This document shows positions 5,694 to 41,237 of a DNA stretch of 64,000 bases, piece by piece (position 1 is the first letter of the stretch; each line of letters opens with the position of its first letter). Origin of the DNA: Chelatococcus composti (GTDB lineage Bacteria > Pseudomonadota > Alphaproteobacteria > Rhizobiales > Beijerinckiaceae); the NCBI RefSeq assembly GCF_014201415.1, contig NZ_JACHEH010000010.1, positions 1 to 64,000 on the forward strand, given 5' to 3'. The position numbers were made by a program, and so were the translations under genes. Under the pieces are notes generated by a model. That model did no database searches, was not told the DNA's origin, and saw nothing but the letters and a program-made list of their open reading frames with translations.

Positions 5694-5783
5694 GAGGTCG
5701 CGGAAGCCCGGCGACTGAAGAGCCTCGAGGGCAAGGGTCGCAGGCTGAAGGAGCTGCTGGCGGACTTCATGCTGGACGTCGCA
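5694..5783 (+). pseudogene. remnant of IS3-family transposase orfA
   Basis: About 30 codons encode EVAEARRLKSLE followed by RRLKELLADFMLDVA, the leucine-zipper end of IS3-family OrfA proteins (typically EAKRLKxLExENxRLKxLLADxMLD). The upstream helix-turn-helix part is not in this frame, and no OrfB (DDE domain) follows. No terminal inverted repeats could be identified. This is a decayed fragment, indicating past IS insertion next to the nrd locus. The call rests on the zipper pattern only. Confidence 0.5.
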
Positions 5784-6006
5784 TGCCGAGGTCCAGGGGC
5801 AGCGATGAACTCCTTGACGCGCAGCCCAGACCTGGGTATGCGCATACACAGGTCCATGCGTGAGAAAGCCCCGTTTTTGTGGATTTTCAGCAATGACTTA
5901 GCGGGCTTTGGAGGTTCGGATCCCTCCTCCGCTGCCATTGCTATGGCCGACGGTTCGGACGGACAGATTTGCTGCCGCATCCGTTGCCCCGTCCCGGCAC
6001 GCCCCA

Positions 6007-7017
6007 TCACCGCGTCCAGCAATAGCCGAAGGCGCAGCCCGTGACCGTCACCTTCTGGGACACGGCGAAGGGGTTCGGCTGCTCGAGACCGATGCGTACG
6101 AGGCGTGAGCGGTCGCGCGGGCGGAACATGTTCTGGAACTCCGCCGGCAGGGCGTCGGCGACAGTCAGAATCGCCTCGATGCGGCCGCGCGCCGAGTGGG
6201 GGCCGCCCTTCACGCGCACCGGCATGCCCTCGCTGACCTCGAACAGGTAGGCGTCCGGCAGGTAGGCGAGGATGTAGGACCGGCCGAAGTTGATCTGCAT
6301 CAGCTCGTCGCCGAACTTCACGATCTGCCCCGGGATCGGCACCTTGGCACCGACGACGCCAGGCGCGCCGGCGCGCAGGTAGCCGTCGTCGTAGAGGCCG
6401 TTGAGTTTGTCGATGGCCTCGCGGAAGATGGCGCGGGAGCGCCTGAGCAGGACGAGCTCGTTCTCGGTCGCGATCTTCTCGCTCTGCAGCGCGGCGAGGC
6501 GCTCGGCGGCCTGCAGGCTATTGCGCAGGGCGTCGTCCTTGGACAGCAGGGAGACGATCCCGCGGCCGGAGATGGTGTCGAACTGGGTGGCGGTGGCGCC
6601 GGTCTCCCGCGCCGTTCGCTCGGCCAGCGGCGCGATGGCCGCGATGGTCGTCAGCCGGCCGTTGAGCTGCCCTTCGCGGATGGACAGCTCGCTGTCGCGC
6701 AGGGCGAAGTTGGCGAGCTCCCGGATCATCTCGAAGGATTCGATGCGGATGAGCGGCATGCCCGCCTCCACCCTGTCTCCTTCCTTGACGTAGACCTCCA
6801 TGACGCGCCCGGGATAGCTCGCCCCAACCGAATAGCGCTCCGTGAGGACCGTGCCGTCGAGCGACAGGACGAACATGTTGCCGACCATGTAATAGGCCAG
6901 CGAGCCGAAGAAGAGGGTGACGAGCACGAGGTAGACGGTGCGGCCGAGGCGGCCCGAGGCGGAGCGCTGCTGAGCATCGAGGCGATCGACACGCGGTTGT
7001 CTGCGAAGGCGTTTCAC
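6007..7017 (-). CDS. HlyD-family membrane fusion/adaptor protein
   Basis: This 336-residue protein has a short basic cytoplasmic N-terminus, one membrane segment at about residues 26-48 (TVYLVLVTLFFGSLAYYMV), then a lipoyl-like barrel half (SYPGRVMEVYVKEGDRVEAGMPLIRIES), a coiled-coil stretch at about 110-220 with a run of Leu, Glu and Arg, and the returning barrel half (GQIVKFGDELMQINF). This is the HlyD/EmrA layout of periplasmic adaptors. It ends FGYCWTR. It is the last gene of a three-gene minus-strand operon, 13 bp after the GT2 glycosyltransferase, which argues for a role in moving or organising the polymer that enzyme makes. No outer-membrane channel or ABC exporter is adjacent. Confidence 0.85.
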   Translation of the reverse strand: MKRLRRQPRVDRLDAQQRSASGRLGRTVYLVLVTLFFGSLAYYMVGNMFVLSLDGTVLTERYSVGASYPGRVMEVYVKEGDRVEAGMPLIRIESFEMIRELANFALRDSELSIREGQLNGRLTTIAAIAPLAERTARETGATATQFDTISGRGIVSLLSKDDALRNSLQAAERLAALQSEKIATENELVLLRRSRAIFREAIDKLNGLYDDGYLRAGAPGVVGAKVPIPGQIVKFGDELMQINFGRSYILAYLPDAYLFEVSEGMPVRVKGGPHSARGRIEAILTVADALPAEFQNMFRPRDRSRLVRIGLEQPNPFAVSQKVTVTGCAFGYCWTR

Positions 7018-7030
7018 GTGGGCCCCCGTC

Positions 7031-8311
7031 TTACCAGGGCCGCTGCAGGCGGACTTTGAGCGGCGTATAGTTGTCGCGGTGCGAGCCCGAGAACGCCCAT
7101 TCCTCGATGTAGGCGTACAGGCGCACGAGGCGCATGACGTACGTCATGAACAGCGAGTAGCCCGGCAGGAAGGGCAGGTTGCGCAGGAAAACGCGCCGGC
7201 CCGTGCACCAGGTGGAGACGGCGAGGATGAGCGCATCGACGAGCATCAGGCCGATCTGCATGGCGATGAGGATGGCGATCGCGAAGGAGCCGAACTGCGC
7301 GAACAGCCAGGCGAGATAGACGGGAAAGGCGAAGGCGGCGGCCACGTTGAACAGTGCGAAGTCCCACTGGTGGAAGGCCTCGCCCGGGCGGAAGGCCGGC
7401 GACAGCGGGCTCATCAGCCGCGCGTGCTTGCGGAAGCGGATCCAGATGGAGTCCCGGTCCCAGCGCAGCCGCTGGCGGATGTATTGATAGAGCGTCTCCG
7501 GCACGTCGGTGTAGCAGACGGCCTCGGGCGCGAAGACGACGCGCCAGCCCTTGCGGCGCAGGCGGATCGTCGTGTCGAGGTCCTCGCCGCCGCCGGCCTC
7601 GAAGCCGCCGATGTCCTCCAGTGCCTGGCGTCGGAAGGCGCTGAAGGCGCCGGAGGCGCAGACCACCTGGTCGATGGCGTTGGCGATGCGCTTTCCGACG
7701 GAGATCGATTGCAGGTATTCGATCTCCTGGAACTGCGCAATGACGCTCGCCTCGCTGTTGCGCGGCGCGATGTCGCCGCACACCGCCCCGACGCGCGGGT
7801 CTGCGAAGGGCTCCACGAGGCGCTCGATGGCATAGCGGTCGAAGGAGCAGTCGCAGTCGACGTTGACGATGATGTCGCCGGTGACGAAGGTGCTGGCAAG
7901 GTTGATGCCGCTCGGCTTGCCGCCGCGCAGGTCCGTGGCGAGAGCCCGTGTGGCGAGGCCGCGCCGCACGAGGTCGCGGGCCACTGCGCGCATGCGGTCC
8001 GTCGAACCGTCGCTGGCGATGACGATCTCGAAATCGGTCAGCGACTGCTCGTGGAGGGAGCGCACGCAGGCCTCCAGCGCCCGCTCCTCGTTGTGGCCGA
8101 CGAGGATGATGCTGACACTCGGCCGGAATCGGGGCTCCGTCTCCGCCGTGGCTGGCGGCGCCTCCTCCCGCGAGCGCATGACGAGGCCGACCACGAGAAA
8201 AGGCAGGATGTAGCGCGGAAACTCGAAGATCAGCGTGTACCAGAAGACGACCACGATGCTGAGGGTCGACTGGCCGAGAAGGAAGGAAAGGCCGAGTTCG
8301 AGCGTGGTCAC
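7031..8311 (-). CDS. processive family 2 glycosyltransferase, membrane-bound
   Basis: The 426-residue product starts at GTG 8311, overlapping the upstream stop as GTGA. It has an N-terminal membrane segment (about 18-45), a GT-A domain from about residue 64 with the DGSTD and DCD (152-154) UDP/metal motifs, GGEDLD (241-246) for the catalytic acid, and QRLRW (280-284) as the QxxRW motif of processive synthases. Three to four membrane segments follow (about 320-400). This is the architecture of PgaC, hyaluronan and cellulose synthases, so it probably polymerises an NDP-sugar at the inner membrane. The sugar cannot be told from sequence. No deacetylase, PilZ protein or glucanase flanks it, unlike the pga and bcs loci. 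Confidence 0.88.
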   Translation of the reverse strand: MTTLELGLSFLLGQSTLSIVVVFWYTLIFEFPRYILPFLVVGLVMRSREEAPPATAETEPRFRPSVSIILVGHNEERALEACVRSLHEQSLTDFEIVIASDGSTDRMRAVARDLVRRGLATRALATDLRGGKPSGINLASTFVTGDIIVNVDCDCSFDRYAIERLVEPFADPRVGAVCGDIAPRNSEASVIAQFQEIEYLQSISVGKRIANAIDQVVCASGAFSAFRRQALEDIGGFEAGGGEDLDTTIRLRRKGWRVVFAPEAVCYTDVPETLYQYIRQRLRWDRDSIWIRFRKHARLMSPLSPAFRPGEAFHQWDFALFNVAAAFAFPVYLAWLFAQFGSFAIAILIAMQIGLMLVDALILAVSTWCTGRRVFLRNLPFLPGYSLFMTYVMRLVRLYAYIEEWAFSGSHRDNYTPLKVRLQRPW

Positions 8312-9660
8312 GGCTGGGCGGTTCCCAGGATCTTCGCGATGGTGAGGCGGGCGTCGAGCTTGTGCCGCAACAGGTTCTCGCTGCGGAGGAGGAGGCTGCG
8401 CAGCCATGCCTCCGCCTGGGCCTCGAATCGCTCGATGAGGATATAGACGGCATCCTCCGCCACGTGCACCGAGCCGACACCGGCGAGCCTGTTGCGCAGG
8501 TTCTCGACGAGCAGGTCGCGCGACTTGCGGAAGGCCGTGGGGCCATGGGTGGCGATGAGCTCCTCCTTCCCGGCGAAACGGATTTCGGCGATGCCAGCGC
8601 GCATACCGGCCGTGGCGTTGATGCGGGCCACCTCCCGTTGCAGCGACACGGGCATGCGCGCCGCCAGCATCGGCCCGCGACCTTCCAGAAGGGCCCTCGC
8701 CGCATCGGTGAGCGAGTAGCTGAAGATGTCCACCCGCTCGGCGGCGTCGCCGTCCATCCGCGCGCTGCAATCGAGGCAGACGAAGCCGACTTCCGGTTCG
8801 GAGGAGGTCGCGTCGCATGTGTTGCAGACGTAGGCGTGGCCGGGGCGGTCGTAGTCCTTGCCGTAGTTGCGCAGCTGCCGGCTGCATTTAGGACAGACGA
8901 GGGCGGCGCCGCGGCGGAACTGCTCTTCCGGCAGCAGGGCGGCGCATTGGTAGTGGTGGATGAGGCCGGTCTCGCGCAGGTCCGCCGAGCGGCAGGAGGG
9001 GCACTCCTCGCGCGCGCTCAGCCGGCGGGACCGGCAGATGCGGCATTCGTGCAGGCGATCGAGGAATGTCTTCCTGAGGAGCCCGCGCAGGGCGAGCTCC
9101 TCAGCGATGGGAACAACCCTGGCGGCCGAGAAGAAGCCGGGATAGCAGACGGCCTCCGGCGTGAGGGGATAGCGCATGCCGCGCAGGGGGCGGCCGGACA
9201 CATACATGTGGGCGAGAAGCTGGAGGTCCGGCTCGCCCGTCTGCCTGTACTGCGGCGCGAGCTTTTCGCGCTGCCGGCGGAAACCGACGATGCGCCTTGC
9301 CGTCTCGCTCCAGGTTGGCGGCTGCATGATGTCGAAGGCGGCATCGGCGAACTCGCCGGCCCGGCCCCTGATGTCGATCATCGGCAGCTGCAGCCCGCCC
9401 GCATGGTCGCGGATGTCATGCAGCGGCGACCAGCTGCGCTCATCACAGAAGAGGATGGCATCGGCGTCGTCTCCGTCGGCCGGGTCGAACAGCCAGCCGA
9501 AGACGATGTCGAGGTGCGGGGGGATGCGTGGAAACCAGCGCACGCGCGGCTTCCATACGAGGCCGGCCTCCCGCCAGACGGTGAAGATCTGGTCGACGAG
9601 CTGTGCCCATGCTGTCATCACACCGCTTGTCGCAGGGGCGGGGCCAGTGGGTAACGTCAT
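8308..9660 (-). CDS. TackOD1 zinc-ribbon signalling protein with GGDEF-like C-terminus
   Basis: This 450-residue protein begins at ATG 9660 behind GAGGGA. Residues about 50-130 resemble a degenerate receiver-like fold (VFGWLF, ILFCDERSW, FDIMQPPTW). Residues 206-298 hold five CxxC pairs (206/209, 220/223, 256/259, 279/282, 295/298) plus C239 in HHYQC. This matches the TackOD1 family (thaumarchaeal output domain 1), a tandem zinc-ribbon module attached to signalling proteins. The C-terminal 130 residues look like a diverged GGDEF fold (AGIAEIRFAGKEELIATHG, DAVYILIERFEAQAEAWL) without a GGDEF motif, so cyclase activity is not expected. It is first in an operon with a GT2 synthase and HlyD adaptor. 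A sensory or regulatory role over polysaccharide synthesis is inferred. Confidence 0.75.
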   Translation of the reverse strand: MTLPTGPAPATSGVMTAWAQLVDQIFTVWREAGLVWKPRVRWFPRIPPHLDIVFGWLFDPADGDDADAILFCDERSWSPLHDIRDHAGGLQLPMIDIRGRAGEFADAAFDIMQPPTWSETARRIVGFRRQREKLAPQYRQTGEPDLQLLAHMYVSGRPLRGMRYPLTPEAVCYPGFFSAARVVPIAEELALRGLLRKTFLDRLHECRICRSRRLSAREECPSCRSADLRETGLIHHYQCAALLPEEQFRRGAALVCPKCSRQLRNYGKDYDRPGHAYVCNTCDATSSEPEVGFVCLDCSARMDGDAAERVDIFSYSLTDAARALLEGRGPMLAARMPVSLQREVARINATAGMRAGIAEIRFAGKEELIATHGPTAFRKSRDLLVENLRNRLAGVGSVHVAEDAVYILIERFEAQAEAWLRSLLLRSENLLRHKLDARLTIAKILGTAQP

Positions 9661-9967
9661 GACCGTCCCTCGAACCTCGCGTCGGCGGATTCCCATGCAC
9701 GGTGGATTGGAAGGCCAGTCGCGCCGGGAGCGCGTGCTTCGGCGGTCGTCTTGGCCCCGGCTCGAACTCTAGAGCAAGCCGGCAGCCAAGGCATGATGGC
9801 GGGCTAATCGGATCGGATGAGCGAAGCGCCCTTGCCAACCGGCAGGACAAGCTTTCCCGCCATTCGCGCCCGGACGGCGGGATCACCCCGCCGGGGGCGA
9901 TGCGTCTACGCAGCCGGCGGCCGCGGCCTTTTCCGGCGGTTTGTCGACCTGCCGACGGTGGAGCGCG
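9661..9967. other. 307-bp intergenic stretch
   Basis: This lies upstream of the TackOD1 operon and downstream of the GntR regulator gene, both on the minus strand, so it should hold the operon promoter and the regulator's transcript end. An inverted repeat CGGCGGG-ATCAC-CCCGCCG is visible at about 9877-9896 but has no U-tract. No small gene was seen. Confidence 0.3.
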
Positions 9968-10684
9968 CTACTTTGCCAGGTAGAGCGACAGGCGCTCGGC
10001 GGCGTTGCGCAGGTGGGTCTCTGCCGCGCGCCGGGCGCCAGCCGGGTCGGCCCTGGCGATCATGTCGAAGATCGCCTGGTGCTCGGCCTGGACGCTCTGG
10101 GTCAGCCCGCCCATGCGCGCCGTATTGGCACGGGCGGTGCGGATGAAGTGGCGCACGCGCCGGTCGAGAAAATCCGAGAGGTCGCGGAAGAAGGGGTTGC
10201 CCGTCGCGTCGACGATGGCGCGATGGAAGGCGACATCCTCCTCGACGCCGGGCTCGCCACGGTCGATGGCGGCCTGCATGGCGTCGAGCTGGGCCTGGAT
10301 GGCGGCGAGATCCTCCTCGCTGCGACGCTGGGCGGCGAGCTCCGTCGCCGTGGCCTCCACCGCCATGAGCAGCTCCACGATGTTTCGGATCTCGTCGCGG
10401 TTGGTGAAGTCCTCGACATCAAGACGGAAGGCGGTGGCCGCGCCGGGCTCGGCAATGAAGGCGCCGGCCCCCTGCCGCGTGACGACGAGGCCGTCATGCT
10501 TGAGGCGCCCAATGGCCTCGCGCACCGTCGGCCGGCTGACGCCGAAGCGTTCGGAGATCTGCTGTTCGGTCGGCAGGCGTTCGCCCGGTCGCATGCGCCC
10601 GGCCGCGATCTCCTGGCGCAGCTTCTGTGCTAGCGTGTCGGCCAGCGAGGGAGCGCGGTCGAGAAACTCGTGGGACTGGGTCAT
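9968..10684 (-). CDS. GntR-family (FadR/FCD) transcriptional regulator
   Basis: The 238-residue protein has an N-terminal winged helix (about residues 13-80, with GERLPTEQQISERFGVSRPTVREAI as the recognition region and GLVVTRQGAGAFIA as the wing) and an FCD ligand domain (about 97-230). The His residues of DVAFHRAIVDATGN, EHQAIFD and AETHLRN are the likely metal-binding positions of that domain. Such regulators usually repress catabolic genes until a small carboxylate effector binds. It is the last gene of a minus-strand set of four, facing the transporter operon that starts at 13460. A palindrome that suits this family lies in the divergent region at about 13338-13355. The regulation is inferred. 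Confidence 0.9.
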   Translation of the reverse strand: MTQSHEFLDRAPSLADTLAQKLRQEIAAGRMRPGERLPTEQQISERFGVSRPTVREAIGRLKHDGLVVTRQGAGAFIAEPGAATAFRLDVEDFTNRDEIRNIVELLMAVEATATELAAQRRSEEDLAAIQAQLDAMQAAIDRGEPGVEEDVAFHRAIVDATGNPFFRDLSDFLDRRVRHFIRTARANTARMGGLTQSVQAEHQAIFDMIARADPAGARRAAETHLRNAAERLSLYLAK

Positions 10685-38724: not shown

Positions 38725-41019
38725 TCAGCGCAGCCGTGCGGTCTGCTGCAGAGCGCCGGGATTTTCCCCTCTCAGGTGAGCACGCAGCATCTCGAACGGC
38801 CCGGCCTGGCTGAACCGGAAGCCCTGCGCCGCGTCGCAGCCGATGGCGCGCAGGAACTCCAGCTGCACGTCCGTCTCCACACCTTCTGCCGTGACCGTCA
38901 GGCCGAGATTGTGTGCGAGCTCGATGAGCGCGCGGATGATAGCCGGGCTCTCCGCCTCCCTGCCGATTCCGGCGACGAATGAACGGTCGATCTTGATGCA
39001 GTCGATGGGGAAGTCCCGGAGGTGTGTCAGCGATGAATAGCCGGTGCCGAAATCGTCAAGCGCGATCGGCACCCCCGCCCGACTCAGTTCCTCGACCGCG
39101 AGGCGCACGTTGCGCGCCTGCTCGCCGATCAGCACCGTCTCGGTGACCTCGAGCTTTATCCACGAGGGCGGAATGTCGCGCATGCGCAGCTGGCTGAGGA
39201 AACGCGCGGCATAGTCGCCGCCTGCGAATTCCGCCGCGCTCGCATTGATGCCGATGGAGATCGGCCCTTCAAAACCGTCGGCGCGCAGCTCTGCAAGGTG
39301 TGCCGTCACCAGGCTGAGGACACGCTCGCCGATGCGCCGCGCGCTGTCCTGGTCTCCGAAGGCGTGGGAGAAGGCCTGCGGCGTCAGGACCGTGCCGTCA
39401 CGGTTGCGGATGCGCACGAGCGCCTCGTAGCCCACGAGCCGGTCGTCCCGCAATTTCACGATGGGCTGGTAGAACGGCAGCAGCCGGTTGGTCGCGAGAG
39501 CCTTGCGCACCGTTTCGACCGCGAGCCGTCGTTCGTCGAACAGCGACGCGACTTCCGGTGCATAGGTGCCGACCGCGCCACGCTCGCGCCGCTTGGCGGT
39601 GTAGAGGGCGACGTCTGCGCACTTCAGCAGGTCGTCGGCCGTCGAGGCATCGTCCGGATAGGAGGCGAGGCCGATCGTTGTCGTCACATAGTGACGGTCG
39701 TTGCCGATGCGGATGGGCTTGCGGATGGCGGTGGTGATGCGTGCGGCGACACGCTCGGCAGTGTCCGCGTCGTCACTCTCGTCAAAGATGATGGCGAATT
39801 CGTCACCGCCGAGACGGGCAAGGAACATGTCCCGGTTGCAGAGCTGCCGCAGCCGTTCCGCGACCGCGATCAGCACCCTGTCGCCCACGTGGTGGCCGCA
39901 GGTGTCGTTGATCTCCTTGAAGCCGTCGAGGTCGAGCAGCAGGAGGGAGGCGCGCCCGCCGCGGGAGGAGGCCCGGTCCACCACGGCCTCAAGGTGCGTC
40001 CTGAAGGCGGCGCGGTTGGCGATGCCGGTAAGCCCGTCGAGATGCGCAGCCCGCCAGAGGGCTTGCGTTGCCGCGATCTCGTGCGTCACGTCCTGGACAA
40101 CGCCGATGACGCGGACATGGCCGTCTTCGCTGCTGACCACACGTTCCCCCACCGCGCGCATGGTGCGCCGCTCGCCCGAGGCGGTCACGAGATCCGCCTC
40201 GAAGGAATAGGGGGCGCCGGTCTTCACCGTCGCCTCCAGCTTACGGCGGATCTCGGCGGCGGCCTTCGGTTCGTATCGCGCGAGAACGGCGTCGAGCTTG
40301 AGCGGGCTGCCGACCTCGAGGCCGTGGAGGCGGTAGGATTCGTCCGACCACGTGAGCTCACCGGTTGCGGCGTCGTATTCCCATCCTCCCAGTGAGGCGA
40401 GCCGCTCGGTCTGCGCGAACAGCCTGTTGCGCCGGGCGAGCTCCTCGCTCTGCCGCCGGGCGTTCGCTTCAGACAGGGCGAGCTTGACCGCATTGGCATG
40501 AGCCCGGATCAGCCCTTCGACCACCCGGCCGAACTCCGTCAGGAGCCGGGCCTGGTCAGCATCGAAATCCCGCGGCTTCGTGTCGATCAGGCACAGCGTG
40601 CCGAGCCGCAGCCCGGCGTCGTCATGGAGCGGGCAGCCAGCGTAGAAACGTGCAAAAGGCGGCCCCTGGACGAAGGGGTTGTTTGCGAAGTTCGGGTCTG
40701 CCTGAAGATCTCTGACGAGGAAGATGCCGTTCTCGACCGGGGCGTAAATGCAGAAGGCGTAGCACCGCGGCGTCTCCTCGATGTCGAGCCCTTGCCGCGC
40801 CTTGAACCACTGCCTGTCCTTCTCGAGGAAGGAGATCACGCAGATCGGGCAATTGAAGAAAAAAGCAGCGAGCCGGACGACGGCATCGAAGTCCGGCCTG
40901 GCCGGTGTGCCGACGATGCCCAGCATCTCAAGGGAATGCAGGCGAGCCTCCTCATTCCCTGGGATCGGGTATGGCAGCATGTGCAGACCCGCATGCATTT
41001 CACGAATCGATAAAATCAT
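38725..41019 (-). CDS. GAF-PAS-GGDEF-EAL cyclic-di-GMP enzyme
   Basis: About 764 residues. An N-terminal GAF domain (residues ~15-170, ICVISFLEKDRQWFKARQGL) is followed by a coiled-coil link, a PAS domain (~190-300), a GGDEF domain with intact LARLGGDEFAIIF (I-site RxxD not evident), and an EAL domain with YEALVRI, a conserved ETVL, DDFGTGYSSL, KIDRSFV and AEGVE. Both catalytic cores look complete, so it could synthesise or degrade cyclic di-GMP, with GAF and PAS sensing as input. No membrane segment or signal peptide is seen, so it is cytoplasmic. The start is uncertain: ATG at 41019, 40998 or 40980 all precede the GAF domain. Confidence 0.92.
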   Translation of the reverse strand: MILSIREMHAGLHMLPYPIPGNEEARLHSLEMLGIVGTPARPDFDAVVRLAAFFFNCPICVISFLEKDRQWFKARQGLDIEETPRCYAFCIYAPVENGIFLVRDLQADPNFANNPFVQGPPFARFYAGCPLHDDAGLRLGTLCLIDTKPRDFDADQARLLTEFGRVVEGLIRAHANAVKLALSEANARRQSEELARRNRLFAQTERLASLGGWEYDAATGELTWSDESYRLHGLEVGSPLKLDAVLARYEPKAAAEIRRKLEATVKTGAPYSFEADLVTASGERRTMRAVGERVVSSEDGHVRVIGVVQDVTHEIAATQALWRAAHLDGLTGIANRAAFRTHLEAVVDRASSRGGRASLLLLDLDGFKEINDTCGHHVGDRVLIAVAERLRQLCNRDMFLARLGGDEFAIIFDESDDADTAERVAARITTAIRKPIRIGNDRHYVTTTIGLASYPDDASTADDLLKCADVALYTAKRRERGAVGTYAPEVASLFDERRLAVETVRKALATNRLLPFYQPIVKLRDDRLVGYEALVRIRNRDGTVLTPQAFSHAFGDQDSARRIGERVLSLVTAHLAELRADGFEGPISIGINASAAEFAGGDYAARFLSQLRMRDIPPSWIKLEVTETVLIGEQARNVRLAVEELSRAGVPIALDDFGTGYSSLTHLRDFPIDCIKIDRSFVAGIGREAESPAIIRALIELAHNLGLTVTAEGVETDVQLEFLRAIGCDAAQGFRFSQAGPFEMLRAHLRGENPGALQQTARLR

Positions 41020-41237
41020 AAAATTTTGCTGCCTGCCGACAATACGACAATACACTGTGTGAATGCGAGAGCCGGCAGGCTGTTCCGGGGAGGTCGGGTG
41101 TTCAATCGGACAGGGCCGAGTTTGATCAACTCTTGGGCGTTGATATGGCGGCTCATCGAGGTTTTGCGCTTTGGGACGTGAACTGGCACGCAAATTGATT
41201 GGTTCTCCTCGCAACGACAGCACAAGCGGGAGGGCAC

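Follow-up and report, generated by a model that had tools for sequence, protein, structure and literature searches.

A three-gene operon on the minus strand of a 64-kb stretch of Chelatococcus composti DNA (contig NZ_JACHEH010000010.1, positions 1 to 64,000; the whole stretch is hereafter called the window) tightly encodes a protein with a TackOD1 domain (gene 1), a processive-type glycosyltransferase of family 2 (GT2; gene 2) and a HlyD-family adaptor (gene 3). The operon is probably a divergent, synthase-dependent system of the Mxd type for a cell-surface polysaccharide, with an MxdA-like regulator. In Shewanella oneidensis MR-1, MxdA has TackOD1 as its core, and this link is new; the association of MxdA with TackOD1 is not mentioned in the literature searched, which lay mostly outside subscription journals. 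An earlier reading made from the sequence alone (the sequence-only reading) had described the unit as a candidate for polysaccharide synthesis and export with no match to a described system. The candidate unit with its TackOD1 regulator is well supported by the recurrence of the operon, the processive GT2 motifs, the HlyD protein and the placement of the GT2 in the MxdB clade; the absence of a described counterpart does not hold, since the operon is a divergent homologue of S. oneidensis mxdABC, whose MxdA carries TackOD1. Ordinary in kind as an Mxd-type exopolysaccharide operon, it is new as a variant.

An mxd promoter primer printed in PMC3691769 matched 1 of 129 Shewanella genomes, and two further primers lie 430 bp apart (450 bp is given in PMC3691769) directly before an open reading frame (ORF) of 462 amino acids (aa). 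Because the published primers locate there, this ORF was taken as mxdA of MR-1. The encoded MxdA matches TackOD1 with 238.7 bits and GGDEF weakly (22.5 bits, cut-off 23.8), and mxdA is followed by ORFs for a GT2 (MxdB) and a HlyD protein (MxdC). The window operon resembles mxdABC(D) of MR-1 in gene order, in a regulator combining TackOD1 with a GGDEF fold (predicted in the window), in a GT2 of the same clade, in a HlyD-family adaptor and in the overlap of the first two genes, which is 4 bp in both. We define the first gene of the Mxd family here, from MxdA, as a regulator with TackOD1 and a GGDEF fold, and gene 1 combines the domain with the predicted fold. The TackOD1 region of the window is 31% identical to MxdA over 144 aa (E 3e-19). 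According to earlier publications, mxdABCD is required for a three-dimensional biofilm, MxdA binds cyclic diguanosine monophosphate (c-di-GMP) and interacts with CheY3 and the cyclase PdgA (PMC7666153, PMC11395469), deletion of mxdA or mxdB abolishes aggregation in minimal medium (PMC3691769), and the GGDEF domain of MxdA is degenerate (PMC3409153).

Gene 2 matches PF13641 (E 4.7e-27), has two N-terminal and two C-terminal hydrophobic segments, and carries DCD at residue 152, GGGED at 240 and QRLRW at 280. Motifs of the DxD, ED and QxxRW types mark processive synthases. The synthase had been called PgaC-like, which is correct for the superfamily but not for the specific enzyme: gene 2 scored 143.3 bits against TIGR03937 (PgaC, the poly-N-acetylglucosamine (PNAG) synthase), where the equivalog cut-off is 422.3. 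The PNAG system PgaABCD shares the processive-type GT2 superfamily with the window operon; however, PgaC falls outside the clade described below, and no PgaA, PgaB or PgaD was seen adjoining the window operon. Compared with MxdB, the window GT2 is 31% identical over 366 aa (E 2e-45), and it is the better of two matches in its own genome to a profile of 28 gammaproteobacterial MxdB-type sequences (194.8 versus 48.7 bits). In a FastTree analysis of 73 sequences (122 thinned to 65, then 8 outside sequences added), in which root and references are few, 60 TackOD1-linked proteobacterial GT2s, including the window GT2 and MxdB, formed a clade with one Sinorhizobium medicae GT2 at a local support of 1.0. 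These 60 comprise 33 alphaproteobacterial and 27 gammaproteobacterial-type sequences, one of the latter (L017; L numbers designate loci) from an alphaproteobacterium. The 12 others, including PgaC, NodC, a putative BgsA and a GT2 neighbouring haloarchaeal TackOD1, lay outside. Within the clade, support was 0.61 for the gammaproteobacterial half and 0.41 for the alphaproteobacterial half without S. medicae. On the S. medicae plasmid (L034:6007-8315), the GT2 of this clade is followed by a HlyD gene, with no TackOD1 match in the locus.

The distribution of TackOD1 is patchy: with the genome of the window counted each time, matches over the cut-off were present in 6 of 60 relatives, in 9 of 385 genomes from the class and in 31 of 397 from the order. 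Annotated plasmids in which TackOD1 is succeeded by GT2 and HlyD come from Phyllobacterium (three records), Aminobacter, Roseibium, Palleronia, Methylocystis, Rhodobacteraceae M382 and Plesiomonas; three of the plasmid HlyD genes are annotated as hypothetical, yet match our own HlyD profile. Of 42 TackOD1 ORFs taken as alphaproteobacterial, 34 are followed by GT2 and HlyD; genomes placed in the window's class were counted as such because that class was judged from the closeness to Phyllobacterium and Aminobacter (GT2 60-71%). These 42 consist of the window, 8 of 11 alphaproteobacterial plasmid hits, 12 further stretches (13 were taken, of which L130, at the start of a contig and with only part of TackOD1, yielded no row) and 20 stretches with 21 ORFs from the order search, in whose table 15 of 39 rows were not opened. 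A mostly gammaproteobacterial set was picked by similarity to the Plesiomonas protein, using a scan alignment of three gammaproteobacterial proteins and the gammaproteobacterial-like M382 protein, and comprises the best 80 of 484 tblastn-confirmed stretches. The 80 stretches represent 79 loci and 80 TackOD1 ORFs over threshold; L074, whose gene is split by a stop, was counted twice, L077 and L078 are the same match on two contigs of one metagenome-assembled genome (MAG), L050 and L055 share a contig, L092 comes from a Comamonadaceae MAG, and some other records are MAGs or bear genus-level names. GT2 follows TackOD1 in 79/80 of these ORFs and HlyD in 78/80 (78/79 and 77/79 per locus, the misses L092 and L107 being near contig ends); the GT2 lies within 120 bp in 76/80, and HlyD starts no more than 250 bp from the GT2 in 55 and farther in the rest. 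TackOD1 over the cut-off was found in 14/14 genomes behind these loci, which were chosen as carriers. The three genes therefore co-occur in other genomes, a point on which the sequence-only reading had staked itself. Of four haloarchaeal plasmids opened around TackOD1, one has DUF2334 and a glycosyltransferase as neighbours and the other three lack this pair. In Halorussus (L117:4950-7911), the TackOD1 protein, a DUF2334 protein and a glycosyltransferase are encoded in a row.

The TackOD1 match in gene 1 (Table 1) spans residues 206-298, the segment whose failure to match had been named beforehand as grounds for rejection, and it was also found at the DNA level as the sole TackOD1 place in the genome. 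Gene 1 retains each of the 12 predicted metal ligands (11 Cys, 1 His), and 115 of 128 alignment rows keep the full set. Where ligand entries are gaps only (five rows without the first pair, two without eight ligands and one without six), alignment trimming or gene fragments are at least partly responsible. One TackOD1 protein (L125:4591-6027) lacks both CxxC pairs 220/223 and 279/282 in window numbering, and this joint loss hints that the two pairs may share one metal site. Hydropathy indicated no transmembrane segment in gene 1. The domain resembles TackOD1 of archaeal response regulators in its CxxC/HxxC ligand pattern, and those archaeal proteins carry receiver fusions, as do some bacterial TackOD1 proteins; unlike them, the window protein has a predicted GGDEF fold and belongs to an operon of the polysaccharide type. 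The name TackOD1 was given in archaea, and the naming paper describes the role of its cysteines as still obscure.

Gene 1 has no Pfam GGDEF match at E 0.1, but is predicted to end in a GGDEF fold invisible to sequence search. In the structure model of gene 1 (predicted local distance difference test, pLDDT, 79.1), residues 335-450 match GGDEF domains, including PleD, with Z 11.2 and a root-mean-square deviation (rmsd) of 2.5-2.6 over 114-115 residues; rows 1-43 of the match table are all GGDEF-containing entries (Z >=9.2), and row 44 falls to Z 7.6. With Foldseek alone, the best E for the C-terminal part was only 0.019. A model of the TackOD1 protein of Shewanella jiangmenensis (pLDDT 86.6) matches GGDEF with Z about 15, and its multi-domain matches to PleD, WspR and DgcR extend into the N-terminus with large rmsd; these matches, the sole basis for it, suggest a receiver-like fold in the Shewanella N-terminus. 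The gammaproteobacterial N-terminal region gave no profile alignment with true receivers (hhalign 2.1%). Residues 1-139 of gene 1 are related to the region between receiver and TackOD1 in receiver-fused homologues (hhalign 98.7%, 18 sequences). No Pfam receiver match was found in gene 1 itself; a fused receiver is present in 18 of 42 alphaproteobacterial TackOD1 ORFs by our own receiver profile, with which Pfam agrees in the five scanned. Of these 18 receivers, 14 fit our own aspartate pattern; each of the remaining four has an Asp in the stretch displayed. The fused receiver in some relatives and the binding of CheY3 by MxdA in trans make a suggestive match, not a proof.

In our view, the I-site is most likely the c-di-GMP site of MxdA. 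With rows that do not have both columns left out (2 of 42 alphaproteobacterial and 3 of 84 gammaproteobacterial), gammaproteobacterial rows show RxxD in 79/81 and KxxD in 2/81, and alphaproteobacterial rows show RxxD in 15/40. RxxD as a mark of the Mxd family is our own proposal and not an established criterion; gene 1 does not carry it. It is also absent from the other five members of the window's GT2 branch (L119, L008-L011). At one further locus (L169:5284-11412), two TackOD1 genes lie about 3 kb apart with the same residues across the I-site stretch; one has a receiver and belongs to a full operon, the other has neither.

Table 1. Features of the operon in the window
Feature	Position	Strand	Remarks
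Gene 3, HlyD-family periplasmic adaptor	6007..7017	-	336 aa, one N-terminal hydrophobic segment
Gene 2, MxdB-like processive-type GT2 synthase	7031..8311	-	426 aa
Gene 1, MxdA-like TackOD1 protein	8308..9660	-	450 aa
GTGA overlap, gene 1 stop / gene 2 start	8308..8311	-	TGA 8310-8308 over GTG 8311-8309, read in sequence
Predicted C-terminal GGDEF fold, residues 335-450	8311..8658	-	GGDEF motif absent; structure match
GGDEF I-site position, A393-G-V-G396	8473..8484	-	AGVG replaces RxxD
TackOD1 domain (PF18551), residues 140-317	8710..9243	-	E 1e-43, 149.6 bits, cut-off 32
Ligand-bearing core: C206 C209 C220 C223 H235 C239 C256 C259 C279 C282 C295 C298	8767..9045	-	
N-terminal region, residues 1-139	9244..9660	-	low-confidence alpha/beta model

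The stop and start codons read in the sequence bear out the tight operon that had been proposed, as the TAA of gene 2 (7033-7031) is followed by 13 bp before the GTG start of gene 3 at 7017. The ORF list also allows an ATG start for gene 1 at 9696, which would give 462 aa. A ribonucleotide reductase alpha gene lies downstream of the operon and a GntR regulator upstream; beyond these, a reductase beta gene and short-chain dehydrogenase/reductase (SDR) genes were recognized by eye in the ORF list. None of these inspected neighbours (reductase, GntR and SDR genes) is a pga or bcs partner, as had been noted before. Searches of 5700-9980 found no promoter or terminator pattern, and the window yielded no tRNA. 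Elsewhere in the window (38725-41223, minus strand), a GGDEF-domain protein (155.8 bits) with an EAL-like part, seen by eye, is a c-di-GMP enzyme.

Gene 3 matches PF13437 (E 3e-11), and PilZ, which marks the adaptor of the alginate polymerase Alg8/Alg44, is not among its Pfam matches at E 0.1. The sequence-only reading had pointed to the lack of an outer-membrane channel; this does not set the operon apart, being neither peculiar nor universal. In MR-1, inspection by eye of the ORFs listed near mxdABC revealed no such channel gene, and an OEP-type protein lies between GT2 and HlyD in 21 of 80 rows of the mostly gammaproteobacterial set (by phmmer relatedness, with one scanned protein matching PF02321). 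In Methylocystis, an OEP gene lies about 1 kb beyond HlyD, and the genome of the window matches PF02321 at three places (five rows). Because related operons contain OEP-type genes, export probably uses a TolC-type channel. At L096:8571-10646 and 20 other loci (Pseudomonas and related), the protein between GT2 and HlyD has about 690 aa, with an OEP domain and then a C-terminal part of about 250 aa that looks, by eye only, like a TIM barrel or glycosidase.

Several results weigh against an Mxd-type assignment. Plain identity of the window GT2 is 27.9% to MxdB and up to 28.3% to GT2s outside the clade; because it does not favour MxdB, the kinship is carried by the tree and the profile. Gene 3 ranks third of 11 in its own genome with the gammaproteobacterial MxdC-type profile (27.7 versus 49.2 and 41.8 bits), and BLASTP against MxdC was not significant (E 6.1). 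By these comparisons the window HlyD does not appear specifically MxdC-like, and because it gives no MxdC-specific signal, the HlyD partner may have evolved faster or been replaced. The N-terminal region of gene 1 has no detectable homology to that of MxdA or the gammaproteobacterial proteins (hhalign 0.4%, 78 sequences), and MxdA has a weak Pfam GGDEF match where gene 1 has none. The I-site, RVTD in MxdA, is lost in gene 1, and missing c-di-GMP signalling cannot explain this loss, because the genome has 13 GGDEF matches. Finally, 8 of the 42 alphaproteobacterial TackOD1 ORFs have no downstream GT2. L126-L129 have other neighbours by our own profiles (L127 being 1.1 kb from a contig end); L166 seems, by eye, to continue into GT2-like sequence in a different frame; at L172 HlyD comes next and no GT2 was seen; at L177 both HlyD and GT2 lie upstream; and the ORF at L169 is the second copy near a full operon. 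L126-L129, which belong to the window's class, have RDVD or RLVD at the I-site and neither a GT2 nor a HlyD neighbour by the same profiles, and TackOD1 possibly has another role there.

The alternatives to be weighed concern both the kind of synthase and the signal that gene 1 would receive. The operon could encode a c-di-GMP-activated mixed-linkage beta-glucan synthase of the BgsBA kind, which has no dedicated outer-membrane channel, with TackOD1 as an extra. For the comparison, BgsA was identified by its HlyD neighbour and by what we take to be its pSymB map position, not by annotation. This putative BgsA has 669 aa versus 426 aa in the window, leaving the window GT2 no room for the published c-di-GMP-binding C-terminus, and it falls outside the TackOD1-linked clade; the gene order is also reversed, and no TackOD1 match was found in the 35-kb pSymB stretch searched. 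PMC9495663 does describe BgsBA as a HlyD-GT2 pair in Rhizobiaceae, putatively a two-gene operon in R. etli, so the adjoining GT2 and HlyD-like genes of Sinorhizobium and Rhizobium resemble those of the window. With the c-di-GMP domain inside BgsA, and given that the window GT2 neither groups with the putative BgsA nor has such a domain, this is the least probable of the explanations. Barely less improbable is the idea, proposed by the sequence-only reading, that TackOD1 switches the synthase by sensing zinc or redox state. The twelve near-invariant Cys/His ligands speak for it; however, a built-in zinc-ribbon sensor is not supported, because ligand conservation in 115/128 rows is explained at least equally well by a structural zinc core, and signalling probably lies with the receiver and GGDEF-like domains around it. 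The reported partners of MxdA (PMC7666153, PMC11395469) are c-di-GMP, CheY3 and PdgA, and the naming paper leaves the functions of the cysteines obscure.

It is somewhat easier to imagine, though still unlikely, that gene 1 still responds to c-di-GMP through a site other than the I-site of its GGDEF-like domain, so that the unit works like Mxd of Shewanella. The model of gene 1 retains the GGDEF fold, MxdA is reported to bind c-di-GMP (PMC11395469), and the 13 GGDEF matches point the same way; against this stand the replacement of RxxD by AGVG and its absence from the five other members of the branch.

For the preferred Mxd-type system, the following mechanism is proposed. Gene 2 would polymerize a sugar nucleotide and pass the chain through the inner membrane, and gene 3 would bridge the periplasm between gene 2 and a TolC-family channel whose gene lies at another place in the genome. 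Gene 1 would be a cytoplasmic regulatory subunit that contacts the GT2 and regulates its activity, built from an N-terminal adaptor region, a zinc-stabilized TackOD1 core and a C-terminal GGDEF fold without the catalytic motif. In the window's branch, both known inputs appear to be gone from gene 1, presumably including the response to c-di-GMP. Because gene 1 has neither a receiver match nor the I-site, it is probably driven in trans by a protein partner, such as an unlinked receiver, or serves mainly as an assembly or stability subunit. A wider proposal, offered tentatively and with rather less than even confidence, is that TackOD1 is a general module that docks receivers or c-di-GMP-binding pseudo-GGDEFs onto one clade of processive GT2s in Alpha- and Gammaproteobacteria, and that the window's branch shed both inputs and is now partner-driven.

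Altogether, the presence of TackOD1 in MxdA, a c-di-GMP effector in an exopolysaccharide machine, offers a testable setting and a likely job for the domain. Mxd-type operons extend far past Shewanella, to the 484 stretches confirmed by tblastn in one scan and to alphaproteobacteria, and the fused receivers agree with the published interaction of CheY3 with MxdA. With its lost I-site, the window's branch provides a natural test of how synthases of this kind are controlled.

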